DNA from: Malonomonas rubra
Lineage (GTDB): Bacteria; Desulfobacterota; Desulfuromonadia; Desulfuromonadales; Geopsychrobacteraceae
Direction of reading: 5' to 3'
NCBI RefSeq assembly: GCF_003247215.1
Contig: NZ_QKAP01000115.1
Location: 1-54,947 of the forward strand
DNA length: 54,947 bases
Below, in pieces: positions 7,870-52,753 of the stretch; position 1 is the stretch's first letter; the number at the start of each line of letters is the position of its first letter. A program made the translations under genes and the position numbers. The notes under the pieces are model-generated. The model did no database searches. It had not been told where the DNA came from and saw only the letters and a list, made by a program, of their open reading frames with translations.

Positions 7870-10023
7870 TTATGGTTTGTTCTTCAACGCCTCGGCGAGC
7901 AACTCAACGGTGTGCTGCACGCGAACGTTCACCCCTTGCTTTTCGACTCCCCCGCGGATCTGCAGCATACAACCGGGACAGTCCATCGCCACGCAGGAGG
8001 CGCCACTCTCGACAATATCACTCAATTTGTCATTGAGTATCCGCATAGCAATCTCGGGATGACTGGTCAGCGAGTAAGAGCCGCCGAAGCCGCAGCAACG
8101 ATCGGCGTGAGCCATCTCGACCAGGTCAAAACCTGCCGATTCGAGCAACTGCCGGGGTTCTTTCCAGACCCCGGCGCCACGTTTCAGGTGGCAGGAATCG
8201 TGGTAGGTCACTTTTTCTCCGCTTGCCGATGTTTTAAATTGATCGGCGACACCGAGTTGGTGGACGACAAAACCAGCCGCGTCAACGGTTATCTCTGCCA
8301 ATTTTTCTGCCTTGGCGGCCCAGGCCGGGTTGTCTTTGAGATGCTCGACAAAGTCGCGCTGCAACGCCATGGTGCAGGTCGGGCAGGTGGTGAGGACGAA
8401 ATTGGGATTCCCCTCCAGCATCGCATCGATATTCTGCTTGGCCAGCTCGATAGCGGTCTCCTTGTCGCCCGAGTAAAGCGCCGGTACGCCGCAACAGTTC
8501 TGCTTTTGCGGATAGTAGACCTCTACATCATGGGCGTTCATCACCGTCACTAGATCGAGGCCCAACTCAGGATAAAGGAAGTCATTGGCGCAGCCGCCGA
8601 ACAGGGAGACCCGGTAACGCGGCTTCTCAACCTTCTGTGGCTGGTGCAGGATGACATCGCGCAACGGCTTCTCGGCCACTGCCGGCAGGGTGCGCCACTC
8701 GGTCAGCGAAGAGAAGAACAGCGGCAGATGACGGATGCTGCGCTCCCCCCGGGTGACCGGTTTCTGCATCAGGCTGGCGGCGCGAATCAAACCGTGGAAC
8801 AGCCTGCGGTTACGCATCACTTTGCGAAAAACGATATCCTTGCCGACGCCAATACCTTCTTCCTCGCCGACTGTTTCGCGCAAGCTGAGGATTATCTCCT
8901 CCAGGTCGATCTTGCTCGGGCAGATCGCTACGCAGGAGCGACAACCGATACAGGCTCGAACGATTTCGGCGGCTTTTTCCAGCCCGTGGAAAAAAGCGGT
9001 CAGGATGATGCCGATAGCGCCGATGTAGATGTGCCCGAAAACATGCCCTCCGACGGTCTGGTAAACGGGGCAAACATTGGCGCAGGCCCCGCAGCGGATG
9101 CAGTTGAGGGCATCTCGGCACTGTGGCGACTCCGCCAGGGTGCTACGACCATTGTTAAGCAGGACGATGTGCAGCTCTTTCTCCTCGCCAGCGCAGGGCA
9201 CCGCGCCACGAATCCAGGTCACGTATGAAGTGATCGGCTGTCCGGTGGCGTTCTTCGGTAGGATGCGGATTACCTTTGTGGCGTCCTTCAGCGTCGGCAC
9301 CAGTTTTTCGGTGCCAACCAGTGCCACATGCACCTTTGGCAGGGTCGAAGCGAGCCGGGCGTTCCCCTCGTTGGTCATCAGGGCAATGCCGCCGGTTTCG
9401 GCGACGGCAATGTTGGCACCGGTGATGCCAATTTCAGCCTCTAGGTAGCCCTGCCGCAGCTGCTCACGAGCGACCTGCACCAGATGGGAAATCTCTGCCG
9501 GTTCTGTCTTACCGGTTTCCTTGCTGAACAGCTCGGCGACCTCTTCCTTGAACATGTGGATCGCCGGCATCACCATGTGGCTGGGGCGTTGCCCGGCCAG
9601 CTGAATGATCCACTCGCCAAGGTCGGTCTCCAGCGCCTTGGTGCCAGCCTTTTCCAGCGCCACGTTCAAGTGGGTCTCCTCGCTGGCCATGCTCTTGCTC
9701 TTGACTGCCAGCTTGGCACCCTTCTGTTTCGCCAATTCGGCAATATAGTTGTTGGCATCCTCGGCGGTCTTGGCTAAATAGACGGTCGCCCCAGCGGCTT
9801 CAGCGTTCTTGACAAACTGCTGCAACAACGCGGTATGGTTCTCGCGCACACCGGTCTTCATCGCAGAGATCTCACTGCGCATCGCTTCGAAATCGTAGTT
9901 GGCAAAGGCTTTGCCGCGCGAAACCAGGTAAGCGTCACCGAACTTGTGCAGGGCATCCTGCAGTTTCGGCGTGGCGAGGGCCTTATCGATGCGACGTCTA
10001 TATTCACGCGATCTTTGCTTCAT
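7870..10023 (-). CDS. LutB-LutA fusion: LUD domain, two 4Fe-4S clusters and CCG domains (L-lactate oxidation)
   Basis: A 717-residue cytoplasmic iron-sulfur protein. Residues 60-300 form a LUD domain like LutB/LldF (TGANIAVAETGGIALMTNEG). Two ferredoxin-type motifs follow: C308/C311/C314/C318 and C358/C361/C364/C368. The C-terminal half (about 445-700) carries two Cys-rich CCG domains like LutA/LldE: QNCCGVPALYSGD, TTCPTCTMA, HDSCHLKRG, RCCGFGGSYS and DCPGCMLQ. In Bacillus LutA, LutB and LutC are separate and together oxidise L-lactate to pyruvate; here A and B are one chain, as in some Desulfovibrio. The start ATG at 10023 has AAGG upstream. It is the second gene of the operon with lutC, and a hairpin terminator follows. 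The electron acceptor is unknown. Confidence 0.88.
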   Translation of the reverse strand: MKQRSREYRRRIDKALATPKLQDALHKFGDAYLVSRGKAFANYDFEAMRSEISAMKTGVRENHTALLQQFVKNAEAAGATVYLAKTAEDANNYIAELAKQKGAKLAVKSKSMASEETHLNVALEKAGTKALETDLGEWIIQLAGQRPSHMVMPAIHMFKEEVAELFSKETGKTEPAEISHLVQVAREQLRQGYLEAEIGITGANIAVAETGGIALMTNEGNARLASTLPKVHVALVGTEKLVPTLKDATKVIRILPKNATGQPITSYVTWIRGAVPCAGEEKELHIVLLNNGRSTLAESPQCRDALNCIRCGACANVCPVYQTVGGHVFGHIYIGAIGIILTAFFHGLEKAAEIVRACIGCRSCVAICPSKIDLEEIILSLRETVGEEEGIGVGKDIVFRKVMRNRRLFHGLIRAASLMQKPVTRGERSIRHLPLFFSSLTEWRTLPAVAEKPLRDVILHQPQKVEKPRYRVSLFGGCANDFLYPELGLDLVTVMNAHDVEVYYPQKQNCCGVPALYSGDKETAIELAKQNIDAMLEGNPNFVLTTCPTCTMALQRDFVEHLKDNPAWAAKAEKLAEITVDAAGFVVHQLGVADQFKTSASGEKVTYHDSCHLKRGAGVWKEPRQLLESAGFDLVEMAHADRCCGFGGSYSLTSHPEIAMRILNDKLSDIVESGASCVAMDCPGCMLQIRGGVEKQGVNVRVQHTVELLAEALKNKP

Positions 10024-10101
10024 CTGTTCGCCTTCTAGAAGAGTTTTTTGTTCAAAGAAAATCTTATTTCAAAAAATCTTTTTTATTAAAAAGTAAAACT
10101 T

Positions 10102-10662
10102 TTACATTTCCAACGGACTTTCCGACAAACCCGGCACCAACAGGATATGCAGCTGCTTAGGACCATGTACCCCGATTGTCAGTACCCGCTCAATATCCGC
10201 GGTACGACTCGGACCGGTGATGTAAGCAATATAGTTGCGCGGGTCACGCAGGTGCAGTTGCCTCAACGGTTCAACCGCCTCTAAGCTATCAGCATAAATC
10301 TTTTGCGGATCGAGCAATGCGAATTGCACTTCCGGCAAGGTGGTCGCGAGACGAATCTCTTCGGCAGTGCTCTCCAATGCCAACGTGCCGGTGTCGGCCA
10401 TGGCGAAGTTGACCCCGGTCACCCCGGCCTGTGCTGTTGGCGCCTGCTCGCGAAAATCGCTGTCAACCACGGTAATCCCGGCCCGCCGCAGTTGCCCGGC
10501 CAGGTCAATCCTCTCGCCACTGGCAAATGCCGGACAAAGCAATATACCGGGCGTCTTTTCCGCTAGGTATTCGACTGCCTGCTTCACACCATCACAGGCA
10601 ACAACCTGTGCACCCGCAGCTTCGGCCGCAGATACAAAATTTTTTTTCACTTCTTTTACCAT
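10102..10662 (-). CDS. LutC/LldG-like LUD domain protein
   Basis: A 186-residue LUD-domain protein matching LutC/LldG, the small third component of the LutABC L-lactate oxidation complex. Family motifs are TGVNFAMADTGTLALES and the C-terminal ITGPSRTADIERVLTIGVHG, shared with the LUD part of the next gene. The start is set at 10662 because GGAGG stands 7 nt before this ATG. A longer open frame reaches 10719, but it would run through the operator at 10677-10689 and the -10 region, so it is rejected. First gene of the operon; the next gene begins 78 bp on, across an A/T-rich gap. Probably repressed at the operator that overlaps its transcription start. Confidence 0.85.
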   Translation of the reverse strand: MVKEVKKNFVSAAEAAGAQVVACDGVKQAVEYLAEKTPGILLCPAFASGERIDLAGQLRRAGITVVDSDFREQAPTAQAGVTGVNFAMADTGTLALESTAEEIRLATTLPEVQFALLDPQKIYADSLEAVEPLRQLHLRDPRNYIAYITGPSRTADIERVLTIGVHGPKQLHILLVPGLSESPLEM

Positions 10663-10676
10663 CTGCGCCTCCAAAA

Positions 10677-10689
10677 TTGGTCTGACCAG
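10677..10689. promoter_or_regulatory. FadR/GntR-type operator, copy 1 (lutC side)
   Basis: The dyad TTGGTCTGACCAG carries the TGGTnnnACCA core of FadR-family (PdhR/LldR-like) operators. It lies between the minus-strand -10 and the lutC ribosome binding site. It is part of a 23-bp direct repeat (10675-10697 and 10826-10848) that differs at one base. Confidence 0.8.
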
Positions 10690-10694
10690 GCTCA

Positions 10695-10724
10695 AAGATA
10701 AACATAGTTGCGAGACCATGTCAA
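10695..10724 (-). promoter_or_regulatory. Sigma-70 promoter of the lutC operon
   Basis: On the minus strand: -35 TTGACA (10724-10719), 18-bp spacer, -10 TATCTT (10700-10695). The operator begins 5 bp downstream, so a bound repressor would cover the start site. Confidence 0.65.
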
Positions 10725-10795
10725 CCGTCCAAACCTGCGCACAACAAATGAAAATAACTGTATTCCACCTAAATAGAACTATTTCCTAACCTACC

Positions 10796-10824
10796 TTGAC
10801 AGCTTTACAAACCGCAGCTAATAT
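10796..10824 (+). promoter_or_regulatory. Sigma-70 promoter of glcD
   Basis: A near-consensus promoter: -35 TTGACA (10796-10801), 17-bp spacer, -10 TAATAT (10819-10824). The operator starts 3 bp downstream of the -10 and covers the expected transcription start. Confidence 0.85.
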
Positions 10825-10827
10825 AAA

Positions 10828-10840
10828 TTGGTCTGACCAA
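10828..10840. promoter_or_regulatory. FadR/GntR-type operator, copy 2 (glcD side)
   Basis: A perfect odd palindrome TTGGTCTGACCAA placed just after the glcD -10 box. The same 23-bp block, including the flank GCTCAAAG, occurs at 10675-10697. The pair implies joint control of both operons by one regulator. Confidence 0.85.
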
Positions 10841-10862
10841 GCTCAAAGTCAAAGGAATCAAC

Positions 10863-12254
10863 ATGACCACCAAACCGCTTATCGATCAGCTCTGCCGGCA
10901 ACTCGGCAAAAACAATGTCCTCTGGCTACCTGAAGACCTGCTGGTGCTCGGCTATGACTCCACACCGGGATTGCACGCCACCCCCGACGTTGTAGTCTAC
11001 CCGACCGACAGCGAGCAGGTAAAGGCGGTGGTCAAAATCGCCTGCGACCACAATATACCTATCACTCCGCGTGGCAGCGGTACCGGCCTGTCAGGTGGCA
11101 GCATCCCTATTAACGGCGGCATCGTGATCTGCACCAACAAGATGAACAAGATCCTCGAGATCGACGAAGAGAACCTAACCGCCACCTGTCAAGCCGGCGT
11201 CGTCACCCTAGATCTCTTCAATGCGGTCGCCGAAAAAGGGCTCTTTTATCCGCCCGACCCCGGTTCACAAAAGATTTCGACCCTGGCTGGCAACGTCATG
11301 GAGGACGCCGGCGGTCTGCGCGGCCTCAAGTACGGTGTCACGCGCGACTACGTCATGGCCCTCAAATGTGTGCTGCCTGACGGCAGCTTGCTTGCCACTG
11401 GCGGCAAGAGTGTCAAGGATGTGGCCGGATACGCTTTTAAAGACCTGCTGATCGGTTCGGAAGGCACGTTGGGAATTATCACCGAGATCACCGTCAAGCT
11501 GATCCCGCCGCCACAGGACAAACGCACCTTCCTCGCTTACTTCGACGATATCCGCAGCGCCGGCAAGGCAGTGTCTCAGATCATCGCCGCCAAGATCATC
11601 CCCTCGACCATGGAGATCATGGACAAAGCGACCATCAACTGCGTCGAAGATTACGTCAAAATAGGCCTGCCACGACAGATGGCGGCACTGCTGCTGATCG
11701 AGGTGGATGGCCACCCGGCGGTGGTCGCCGAAGAAGCGGAAGGAGTTGAACGAATTCTCATGCAGGTCGGTGCTGCCGATGTGCTGATGGCTAAAAATCC
11801 CGAGCATGCCGCGGAACTGACCGCTGCCCGCCGCACGGCTCTTTCGGCTTTGGCACGAGTCTCGCCGACTACCCTGTTAGAAGACGCCACCGTCCCCCGT
11901 TCGATGTTGGCCGACACCTTTGCCCTGATTGAGCTGTTGACCGAAAAGTATCAGCTCAAGGTCGGCACCTTCGGTCATGCCGGCGACGGCAACCTGCATC
12001 CGACTGTGCTCTGCGACGAGCGCGACGAAGACGAGATGCAGCGCGCCCACGCCTTCTACGACGAGCTTTACGAACAGGTTCTCGCCTGGGGAGGCACGGT
12101 CTCCGGTGAACATGGCATCGGCATTGCCAAGAAAGACTACTTAGCCCGGCAAATAGGCCCCGCCGGTGTTGCGGTGATGAAACGGATCAAGCAGGCCTTC
12201 GACCCGGCTGGACTTCTGAATCCGGGCAAGATCTTTGCTGACGGTCAGGAATAA
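10863..12254 (+). CDS. glcD: GlcD-type FAD-linked oxidase, probable D-lactate (2-hydroxyacid) dehydrogenase
   Basis: A 463-residue flavoprotein of the GlcD/Dld family. The FAD-binding PCMH part (about 35-215) shows PRGSGTGLSGGS, GLKYGVTRDYV and GSEGTLGI. The C-terminal cap/catalytic part shows GTFGHAGDGNLHP, SGEHGIGIAKK and the closing LNPGKIF. It oxidises a 2-hydroxyacid to the ketoacid and passes electrons to the Fe-S partner encoded next. The start ATG at 10863 has AAAGGAA upstream. The gene sits divergently from lutC and shares its operator type, which favours D-lactate over glycolate as substrate, but glycolate cannot be excluded. First gene of a two-gene operon. Confidence 0.9.
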   Translation: MTTKPLIDQLCRQLGKNNVLWLPEDLLVLGYDSTPGLHATPDVVVYPTDSEQVKAVVKIACDHNIPITPRGSGTGLSGGSIPINGGIVICTNKMNKILEIDEENLTATCQAGVVTLDLFNAVAEKGLFYPPDPGSQKISTLAGNVMEDAGGLRGLKYGVTRDYVMALKCVLPDGSLLATGGKSVKDVAGYAFKDLLIGSEGTLGIITEITVKLIPPPQDKRTFLAYFDDIRSAGKAVSQIIAAKIIPSTMEIMDKATINCVEDYVKIGLPRQMAALLLIEVDGHPAVVAEEAEGVERILMQVGAADVLMAKNPEHAAELTAARRTALSALARVSPTTLLEDATVPRSMLADTFALIELLTEKYQLKVGTFGHAGDGNLHPTVLCDERDEDEMQRAHAFYDELYEQVLAWGGTVSGEHGIGIAKKDYLARQIGPAGVAVMKRIKQAFDPAGLLNPGKIFADGQE

Positions 12255-12258
12255 ACCG

Positions 12259-13560
12259 ATGGCCGACCCAAAAAGTTTGGGAAATTTTACTGCCCAGGAT
12301 GCACCTACATATGAATCGTTGCTGCAGTGCATGCGCTGCGGCTTCTGCCTGCCGACTTGCCCAACCTTTGCCCTGACCGGTCGGGAGCGTTCCAGCCCGC
12401 GCGGCCGGGTCGCCTTGGCACGAGCCGTGGCGGAAGCGAAGTTGCCCTTCACAGAAGCGATAAAGGAAGAGGCATTCTTCTGCCTCGACTGCCGCGCCTG
12501 CAGCACCGCCTGCCCATCCGGCGTCAATCCGGGCGAGGTAATGGAAATTTGCCGCAGTCAGGTTCATCAGCAACAATCACTGCCGAAATGGCAGGAAAGC
12601 TTCCGTAATTTCATCCTGCAGAAGATGCTCCCCGATCCGGGCAGACTGGAATCATCCATGCTACCGGCACGCATATACCAGAAACTCGGCATTCAGTGGT
12701 TGGTGCGCAACAGTCGGATTCTGAAGCTGGGACCGAGGTGGTTCGAAAAAGCCGAAGGGATGCTGCCGGAGCTGCACACCCCGCTGCGACAGAGAATTCC
12801 CGAACTTAACCTAGCCAAAGGGGAAAAACGCGGCCGAGTCGGCTTTTTTCTCGGCTGCGTGATGACCCTGATGTATGCGGAGGTTTCGCGCCAGACGGTG
12901 CGGGTCTTGAGCCATCAAGGTTTCGACGTAATCACACCGAAACTGCAGAAATGCTGCGGTGCGCCGCACTTGACCGAGGGAGACCGGGAAACCACCCGGC
13001 AGCTTGCCGCTCACAATCTGGATCTGTTCCTGGAACTAGACGTCGATGCCATCGTCACTGACTGCGCCGGCTGCAGCGCTGCGTTAAAGGAGTACGAAGA
13101 GATTCTCCACGAACGACGGGAGATAGACAAGCTGGCGAAGTTCCGCTCGTTGGTCAAAGATGTCAGCGAGTTCCTCGTCGAATGGGGACTGCGCACCGAG
13201 CAGCTACAACCAGTCAACAGGTCGGTGACCTACCACGACCCCTGTCACCTCTGCCACGCACAGGGAATAAGCAAGCAGCCCCGCGAGCTACTTAAAGCAA
13301 TTCCGGGGGTCGAGTTCCGTGAGATGAACGAGTCGAGCTGGTGCTGTGGATCAGCCGCAACCTTCAGCCTGAAGTTCACCGCGGAGAGCCAGAATATCCT
13401 CGATCGCAAGCTGAACAACGTGCAAAACACAGGGGCCGACATCCTGATCACCGCCAACCCCGGCTGCCACCTACAGTTGGCTTGGGGGCTGCGCGAAGCG
13501 GGCATGCCGCAACCGGTCATGCACCTGATGGAGTTGCTCGGGCAGGCAACACCGGAATAG
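12259..13560 (+). CDS. glcF: GlcF-type Fe-S subunit with CCG domains
   Basis: A 433-residue electron-transfer partner of the preceding flavoprotein. Two 4Fe-4S motifs, CMRCGFCLPTCP (Cys 24, 27, 30, 34) and CLDCRACSTACP (Cys 75, 78, 81, 85), are followed by two CCG domains (KCCGAPH, TDCAGCSA, YHDPCHLCHAQG, SWCCGSAATF, TANPGCHLQ). Family members accept electrons from GlcD-type flavins and pass them to quinone or another carrier. The start is placed at the ATG 12259, 4 bp after the glcD stop, with AGGA upstream. A longer frame from 12235 would overlap glcD and lacks support. A weak hairpin follows the gene. Confidence 0.88.
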   Translation: MADPKSLGNFTAQDAPTYESLLQCMRCGFCLPTCPTFALTGRERSSPRGRVALARAVAEAKLPFTEAIKEEAFFCLDCRACSTACPSGVNPGEVMEICRSQVHQQQSLPKWQESFRNFILQKMLPDPGRLESSMLPARIYQKLGIQWLVRNSRILKLGPRWFEKAEGMLPELHTPLRQRIPELNLAKGEKRGRVGFFLGCVMTLMYAEVSRQTVRVLSHQGFDVITPKLQKCCGAPHLTEGDRETTRQLAAHNLDLFLELDVDAIVTDCAGCSAALKEYEEILHERREIDKLAKFRSLVKDVSEFLVEWGLRTEQLQPVNRSVTYHDPCHLCHAQGISKQPRELLKAIPGVEFREMNESSWCCGSAATFSLKFTAESQNILDRKLNNVQNTGADILITANPGCHLQLAWGLREAGMPQPVMHLMELLGQATPE

Positions 13561-51985: not shown

Positions 51986-51998
51986 AAGGTCTTACCAA
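51986..51998. promoter_or_regulatory. Operator-like dyad upstream of the FadR-type regulator
   Basis: AAGGTCTTACCAA matches 10 of 13 bases of the operator at 10828-10840 and keeps GGTCT and ACCAA. It lies 17 bp before the start codon, downstream of a weak -10 (TAAAAG, 51983-51988). Confidence 0.5.
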
Positions 51999-52015: not shown

Positions 52016-52753
52016 ATGGCCACTGTTTTTAAACCGATCCGCCCCAAAAAGCTGTCTGAAGAGATTGTTGACCAGATTAAAGAACTGATCTCCCGCGGCG
52101 AACTGAATCCAGGGCAAAGAATTCCCTCCGAAAGGGAGCTGGCCTCTTTTCTGGGCGTCAGCCGCCCTTCAGTCCGCGAAGCGATCATGGTCCTGGAGGC
52201 GATGGGTTTTCTCGAGTCACGCCAGGGGGGCGGCACCTATGTACGCTCGCTGGCTGACGTCACGATGGCCGATCCGTTGGCTAACATGGTTGAACGCCGG
52301 GACCCGCGCATGCTTCATGCGTTAACCGAAGTGCGTATCGGCCTGGAAACCTGGTCAGCCTACCTGGCGGCAAAACGGGCTGAAGATTCGGAAATTGAAC
52401 GACTGCGCGAACTGTACGCCACCATGGTCGAACAGGCAGAGACCGGCGGGTGGGACGCGGAGATCGATTCGGAATTTCACCTGACCATCACCGCGGCAAC
52501 ACACAATACGCTGCAGGTTCACGTCCTCAACACCATCCAGTCGCTGTTTCAAACTACCATCATGGTGGCCCTGAGTGAATTTTACAGCAAGGAAGGCTAT
52601 ATCGAACTGCTGCTGAGTCACCACCGCGAAATCATGGAAGCGATCGCCGATCACGACCCGGAACGCGCTCGCGACAAGATGATGGAGCACCTGACACTGG
52701 TTGAGGAAAAGCTTGCGCTGTTCCTGCAGAAGGAAAGACCTGATACAGCGTAA
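52016..52753 (+). CDS. FadR-family (GntR) transcriptional regulator with FCD domain
   Basis: A 245-residue repressor-type regulator. The winged helix (about 10-78) has LNPGQRIPSERELASFLGVS, PSVREAIMVLEAMGFLE and GGGTYV. The FCD effector domain (about 90-235) has the metal/ligand His residues in SEFHLTIT and HHREIMEAI and the Asp/Arg of EVRIGLETWSA. PdhR, LldR and similar proteins of this class sense pyruvate, lactate or related acids. CGGAGG precedes the ATG. A dyad similar to the lut/glc operator lies in its own upstream region, which makes it a candidate regulator of that module and of itself. Confidence 0.9.
   Translation: MATVFKPIRPKKLSEEIVDQIKELISRGELNPGQRIPSERELASFLGVSRPSVREAIMVLEAMGFLESRQGGGTYVRSLADVTMADPLANMVERRDPRMLHALTEVRIGLETWSAYLAAKRAEDSEIERLRELYATMVEQAETGGWDAEIDSEFHLTITAATHNTLQVHVLNTIQSLFQTTIMVALSEFYSKEGYIELLLSHHREIMEAIADHDPERARDKMMEHLTLVEEKLALFLQKERPDTA

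Follow-up and report, generated by a model that had tools for sequence, protein, structure and literature searches.

The window analyzed here is a contig of Malonomonas rubra (NZ_QKAP01000115.1; 54,947 nucleotides) that carries two divergent gene pairs, ldhI-ldhH and glcD-glcF, and a gene for a GntR-type regulator, as follows:

7870 to 10023, minus strand: LdhH, L-lactate dehydrogenase (quinone) large subunit, with LUD, 4Fe-4S, and CCG domains
10102 to 10662, minus strand: LdhI/LutC-like protein with a LUD domain, probable L-lactate dehydrogenase small subunit
10863 to 12254, plus strand: GlcD-like FAD subunit, probable D-lactate dehydrogenase
12235 to 13560, plus strand: GlcF-like Fe-S subunit
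52016 to 52753, plus strand: PdhR/LldR-type GntR-FCD regulator, proposed to be a repressor

LdhH scored above the cutoff of the corresponding equivalog model (NF045670; 999.1 bits against a cutoff of 800). An earlier reading of the sequence alone (here, the sequence-only reading) had labeled this side lutC-lutAB; the proteins are LdhI- and LdhH-like. On the other side, glcD overlaps glcF, and the next frame of appreciable length downstream lies on the opposite strand. GlcD scored below the cutoff of its equivalog model (TIGR00387; 508.4 bits against 567.9), and no GlcE gene was found between or adjoining glcD and glcF at this locus. The pair thus falls outside the GlcDEF glycolate oxidases as defined by the GlcD cutoff together with a GlcE encoded with glcD-glcF.

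The region between the two gene pairs contains the following features:

10674 to 10702, plus strand: repeat copy A (29 nt), consisting of a candidate operator and the private flank GCTCAAAG
10677 to 10689, minus strand: candidate operator 1 (minus-strand sequence CTGGTCAGACCAA), just upstream of the ldhI ribosome-binding site
10695 to 10724, minus strand: sigma-70-like promoter of ldhI-ldhH from the promoter scan (TTGACA at 10724 to 10719, 18 nt, TATCTT at 10700 to 10695)
10796 to 10824, plus strand: sigma-70-like promoter of glcD-glcF from the promoter scan (TTGACA at 10796 to 10801, 17 nt, TAATAT at 10819 to 10824)
10825 to 10853, plus strand: repeat copy B (29 nt), 90% identical to copy A
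10828 to 10840, plus strand: candidate operator 2, TTGGTCTGACCAA, 3 nt after the -10 box of glcD

The scan of positions 10600 to 10900 yielded these two promoters, one per strand, each with 10 of 12 matches to the sigma-70 hexamers (shuffle mean, 0.3). The positions 10819 to 10824 and 10700 to 10695, which the sequence-only reading had assigned to the TTGACA boxes, mark the -10 hexamers of the two promoters. Its observation that a near-identical block occurs twice, 151 bp apart and each time just downstream of a -10 box, is borne out. The core TTGGTCTGACCA has two exact matches in the window (10677 to 10688 and 10828 to 10839) and none in 100 shuffles, while the block of core plus flank, AAATTGGTCTGACCANGCTCAAAG, matches at 10674 to 10697 and 10825 to 10848 (i.e., two matches against a shuffle mean of 0.01). 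The whole repeat spans 29 nt at 90% identity, with a start-to-start distance of 151. The operators begin 3 nt (glcD) or 5 nt (ldhI) past the -10 box, so they probably cover the transcription starts, which are expected at about 10688 (minus strand) and 10831 (plus strand). Although the promoters diverge, both copies have the same orientation on the plus strand; consequently, GCTCAAAG lies downstream of the operator at glcD and between the -10 box and the operator at ldhI.

The operator core agrees with the Escherichia coli LldR box AAnTGGTCnGACCAnTT at 12 of 14 positions (hand count) and resembles AATTGGTAAGACCAATT, the palindrome before E. coli pdhR, which we take to be the site bound by PdhR. 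With AATTGGTNNNACCAATT-like palindromes at the target promoters, the sites fit the PdhR/LldR operator type; the FadR-type assignment of the sequence-only reading is therefore supported by the comparison of genomes and can be stated more exactly. The two cores in the window are exact, and the M. rubra genome holds four exact copies of TTGGTCTGACCA, one of them before recR and the gene for pyruvate:ferredoxin oxidoreductase (PFOR). Looser forms did not clearly outnumber the reversed controls: TTGGTCTGACCA with at most one mismatch had 15 forward and 5 reverse matches (control, 11 and 6), TTGGTNNNACCAA had 8 forward matches (control, 7), TGGTCNNACCA had 14 and 17 (control, 31 and 24), and ATTGGTNNNACCAAT had none (control, 1). 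There is no clear enrichment of the looser palindromes across this genome, and the case rests on the position of the operators and on their conservation. This lack of enrichment is what would be expected of chance palindromes without a regulatory role, an explanation that we regard as extremely improbable in view of the placement after the -10 boxes, the pairing, and the recurrence of such sites before the same genes in many genomes.

Across 79 genomes (including that of M. rubra), ATTGGTNNNACCAAT occurred at 47 sites, compared with 11 for the reversed control (hand sums). The common gene order in the relatives is ldhIH, CoA-transferase and dehydrogenase genes, a TRAP transporter, a UspA-like gene, glcD, and glcF, and in several of them a regulator gene follows glcF on the opposite strand. 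The TRAP permease was named by model, and the first gene of the transporter (385 aa) probably encodes its binding protein. When only the region before glcD was searched with a strict motif, 6 of 49 loci of the relatives were positive, a low number explained by the position of glcD inside a longer operon in many of them, and the search was therefore moved to the TRAP gene. In the wider set (at most one mismatch, within 300 nt; upstream regions shorter than 150 bases and matches under identity limits of 45, 50, and 70% were dropped), sites were found before 20 of 24 ldhI genes, 16 of 26 TRAP genes, and 7 of 36 glcD genes, the ldhI and TRAP counts being biased upward because part of the stretches had been picked for strict palindromes. 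The 36 glcD upstream regions mix operon heads and internal genes, and the sites were seen mainly where glcD appears, by eye, to head its operon. Because of the bias, the count was repeated on 32 loci for which GlcD similarity was the sole selection criterion (one ldhI match of low identity was dropped). There, 15 of 18 ldhI genes had a site (one mismatch or none) within 300 nt upstream, as did 10 of 19 TRAP genes (17 of 19 at up to two mismatches), leaving 3 ldhI and 9 TRAP upstream regions without a site at the stricter threshold. In one relative (G024; locus L165), two operators are arranged divergently just as they are in the window.

A search by FCD domain found two FCD proteins encoded in the M. 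rubra genome. The one encoded at 52016, about 40 kb from the operators, belongs to the FadR (FCD) subfamily of the GntR superfamily (PF00392, 78.3 bits, cutoff 27; PF07729, 86.3 bits, cutoff 24.3). It scored below the cutoffs of both the PdhR equivalog model (PRK09464; 180.8 bits against 330) and the LldR equivalog model (PRK10421; 178.6 bits against 311). Its identities to E. coli proteins are 38.5% (PdhR), 31.0% (LldR), 29.4% (GlcC), and 27.0% (FadR), and its recognition segment, SRPSxREAI...RQGGGT, is nearly identical to that of PdhR. The effector half carries the LldR-like residue set D-x3-H, H, H, presumably the metal ligands of the FCD domain. These residues (D151, H155, H203, and H225) are invariant in all 43 distinct orthologs (47 of 47 with repeats); the corresponding columns read D, H, H, H in E. 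coli LldR and N, Q, R, H in PdhR (the first PdhR residue was V instead of N in a smaller alignment). The other FCD protein is 28% identical to the 52016 protein, and its sole NCBIfam match at E ≤ 1e-30 was to a phosphonate-type regulator model, below the cutoff (128.7 bits). The regulator ortholog adjoins glcDF in several relatives. All 46 genomes with a GlcD of at least 70% identity had a regulator match (E ≤ 1e-40), compared with 22 of the 33 other genomes; the matches in G007 and G063 are of 61% identity or partial only.

Two further candidate sites in the M. rubra genome lie at other promoters:

51986 to 51998, plus strand: probable autoregulatory site AAGGTCTTACCAA, with two mismatches to TTGGTNNNACCAA, overlapping the extended -10 element of the regulator gene
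L009:4265-4277 (G000:C80:10264-10276), upstream of recR: candidate recR-PFOR operator

At the regulator promoter, GGTC(T/A)TACCA was present in every one of 30 close genomes (the best 30 of 68, with M. rubra included), and 10 of 11 chosen, more distant regulator stretches (10 genomes, one of them represented twice) contained TTGGTNNNACCAA, with no more than one mismatch, close to the start. Upstream of recR, all 30 close genomes (the best 30 of 71 with a recR match) had a site within one mismatch, mostly following an extended -10 element (by eye), and a PFOR match was present in the recR locus of all 30 (RecR and PFOR were named by model). Since this type of operator precedes recR in each of these genomes, recR may share a transcript with PFOR and so come under metabolic control. 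Among 38 further genomes, with up to two mismatches allowed, a site between -97 and -117 occurred in 15 of 28 with the regulator and in none of 10 without it. Pooled, the recR site was found in 44 of the 57 genomes in which the regulator was matched (E ≤ 1e-40) and in 1 of the 11 in which it was not (Fisher P = 3e-5), and outside the family of M. rubra in 11 of 24 and 0 of 9, respectively (P = 0.015), although both P values overstate independence because the genomes are related. The pooled count omits 11 of the 79 genomes (8 without a recR match and 3 with weak or partial matches). In the 13 remaining regulator-bearing genomes outside the family, the recR-PFOR site is absent. The one genome with the site and no regulator match (G034) is 70% complete and may simply be missing the regulator gene from an incomplete assembly.

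On the basis of the conserved sites in the relatives, the own-promoter site, the gene linkage, and the co-occurrence, the 52016 protein is the likely regulator of both operons, as the sequence-only reading had supposed. We predict, with a probability of roughly 0.84, that the two sites in the window are operators for a single PdhR/LldR-type repressor of ldhI-ldhH and glcD-glcF encoded at 52016. A repressor dimer on each operator, lying over the start region, would block initiation by RNA polymerase at both promoters, and a pathway metabolite, most likely lactate (possibly pyruvate), would bind the FCD domain and release it. The same regulator would also control its own gene and recR-PFOR, so that the steps from lactate to pyruvate to acetyl-CoA would be switched together. 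The four lines of evidence above support the part of the earlier claim that one regulator serves both operons; binding, repression rather than activation, and the identity of the effector are parts that we infer. Activation is possible, since E. coli LldR was found in a 2023 study to activate its targets (PMC10272880).

The regulator might instead be mainly a pyruvate sensor (i.e., a PdhR that acts on PFOR, not on the pyruvate dehydrogenase complex), with the lactate genes as part of a pyruvate-node regulon. PdhR is the closest of the E. coli proteins compared (38.5% against 31.0% for LldR) and shares a near-identical recognition segment, recR-PFOR is the best conserved target, and candidate sites precede a pyruvate carboxylase gene and, by eye, an acetolactate synthase-like gene. 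However, the effector half retains the D-x3-H, H, H set of LldR, from which PdhR differs at three of four positions, the regulator gene is linked to the lactate dehydrogenases in the stretches seen, and the pyruvate carboxylase site is found at the same place in 2 of 30 genomes only (M. rubra and, with two mismatches, G003). We therefore consider a mainly pyruvate-sensing role rather unlikely, and pyruvate carboxylase was rejected as a conserved target on the last of these counts. The M. rubra site itself, TTGGTAAGACCAA, is located about 220 nt before the gene (L027:3857-3869; G000:C98). The other site, CTGGTCTTACCAA, is located some 30 nt ahead of a TTGACA that resembles a promoter element of the acetolactate synthase-like gene (L327:1501-1511; G000:C62:7096-7106; by eye), which is a possible further target at the pyruvate node.

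For the conserved flank GCTCAAAG, the sequence-only reading had offered two explanations, a second protein contact and a sign of duplication. All 8 flank bases agree between the two copies, for which the expectation with random bases is about 1.5e-5 per placement, as might be seen if it were a functional second contact or the site of another factor. Yet none of the 43 other distinct operators has GCTCAAAG beside it, and among all 45 distinct ones (49 listed, 4 seen twice) only the two M. rubra operators have GCTC six bases or fewer from the core. No GCTC flank was found beside the sites in 60 recR and regulator loci, and relative to the two promoters the flank lies on opposite sides of the operators. 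Moreover, the flank of the G003 ldhI promoter is partly similar (TTTTTGAAG compared with TCTTTGAGC), which suggests simple descent followed by duplication. Since the flank is private to this genome, the second contact was rejected as a candidate, and we consider any such function very improbable. Duplication fits better: most likely, GCTCAAAG was left behind when a 29-nt stretch was duplicated locally. We infer that the copy at ldhI is the older one and that the 29-nt stretch was copied to glcD, probably when the TRAP-usp genes, which many relatives carry ahead of glcD, were lost; glcD would thereby have acquired its operator.

No close ortholog of the TRAP transporter was found in the M. rubra genome (the best TRAP permease is 34% identical), nor was a Lactate_perm protein. 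The motif TGGTNNNACCA was absent from three loci, of the four with distant TRAP genes in this genome (the fourth is L216). Both lactate dehydrogenases (window positions 7870 to 13560) are thus retained without a close TRAP ortholog or a Lactate_perm protein.

The shared control had also been taken by the sequence-only reading to argue that GlcD and GlcF handle lactate rather than glycolate. The argument is fair but weak, because in E. coli the glc promoter region is likewise bound by LldR and GlcDEF can oxidize D-lactate as well (PMC10272880). The best PDB relatives of GlcD are LctD, from a lactate dehydrogenase complex (7qh2; 344.5 bits), and, second, a protein named glycolate oxidase (9qgz; 328.6 bits), so that sequence by itself leaves the substrate of GlcD unfixed. 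These same points (i.e., the 9qgz match and the binding of LldR at glc) would suit oxidation of glycolate or another 2-hydroxy acid by GlcD/GlcF, with the shared operator reflecting general 2-hydroxy-acid control. Against this, a search for malate synthase (PF01274) found none in the M. rubra genome and was positive in 6 of 14 controls, including E. coli; no GlcE adjoins glcDF; and the relatives cluster TRAP-usp-glcDF with ldhHI, often with the regulator. In addition, the D-lactate dehydrogenase dld-II of Desulfovibrio vulgaris (DVU3027-3028) shares a lactate operon with lldGH (DVU3032-3033) and por, as described in PMC6456213, and thus provides a precedent for lactate. Given the lack of malate synthase, the lack of an adjoining GlcE, and the dld-II precedent, which carry more weight than the shared control, we favor lactate over glycolate as the substrate of GlcDF, short of proof, and the alternative of glycolate or another 2-hydroxy acid appears improbable.

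Anaerobes of this kind commonly use lactate as an electron donor. Regulation of lactate genes by FadR-family proteins is already known, and the operator is of a known kind. E. coli PdhR resembles the M. rubra system in its palindrome type (AATTGGTAAGACCAATT before pdhR-aceE), its recognition segment, the site before its own gene, and the target step (pyruvate to acetyl-CoA); it differs in acting on pyruvate dehydrogenase where the target here is PFOR (with recR), in carrying N, Q, R, H where the regulator here has D, H, H, H, and in overall sequence (38.5% identity). With E. coli LldR and lldPRD, the system shares the box AAnTGGTCnGACCAnTT, lactate genes as targets, and the four FCD residues. 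It differs from LldR at 31.0% identity, in having LdhHI and GlcDF instead of LldD, and in having one operator per promoter compared with the two boxes described for the lldP promoter region in PMC10272880, in which LldR acts as an activator. In D. vulgaris, PFOR, a D-lactate dehydrogenase (dld-II), and an L-lactate dehydrogenase (lldGH) are likewise controlled together (DVU3025-3033), although in one operon under the response regulator LurR and not under a GntR-FCD protein (PMC6456213). The same paper cites a FadR-family LldR of that species (DVU2875), which we set beside the 52016 protein by description; it is a predicted regulator of lactate genes and, unlike the repressor proposed here, a predicted activator of its own operon, DVU2874-3. 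Further FadR-family control of lactate genes is cited there for Corynebacterium glutamicum, Pseudomonas aeruginosa, and Bacillus subtilis.

The system differs from these in its target set, in which two lactate dehydrogenases, a TRAP system, and recR-PFOR are predicted to be under one regulator that scores below both equivalog cutoffs. Among the open-licence papers listed, no title or beginning of an abstract described a lactate regulon in the Desulfuromonadales, which argues only weakly that none has been published. PMC5343134 deals with the regulons of LldR and PdhR across Proteobacteria, and the word Desulfuromonadales does not occur in it. The analysis thus puts names to a candidate regulator, its operator, and its target set and ties the lactate dehydrogenases to PFOR. 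More tentatively, and at somewhat less than even odds, we propose that a PdhR-like DNA-reading head combined with an LldR-like effector domain serves as a master switch from lactate to acetyl-CoA in this part of the Desulfuromonadales (i.e., for both lactate dehydrogenases, TRAP, PFOR, and the supply of RecR) and that, in M. rubra, the 29-nt duplication of the ldhI operator recaptured glcDF after the loss of TRAP. A duplicated operator could in this manner return a displaced operon to control, and the locus would, if this is true, offer a readable case of operator birth.

Several other matches were observed. An exact TTGGTCTGACCA lies between aspartate-semialdehyde dehydrogenase-like and queF-like genes (L010:4643-4654; G000:C114:21142; by eye), and a site on C118 lies inside an RNA polymerase beta'-like gene (by eye). 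In two genomes of one genus (G021 and G014), ATTGGTCGGACCAAT was found at L142:4529 and L144:4752, beside rows of genes of matching length and unassigned function, and it is perhaps the site of another regulator.
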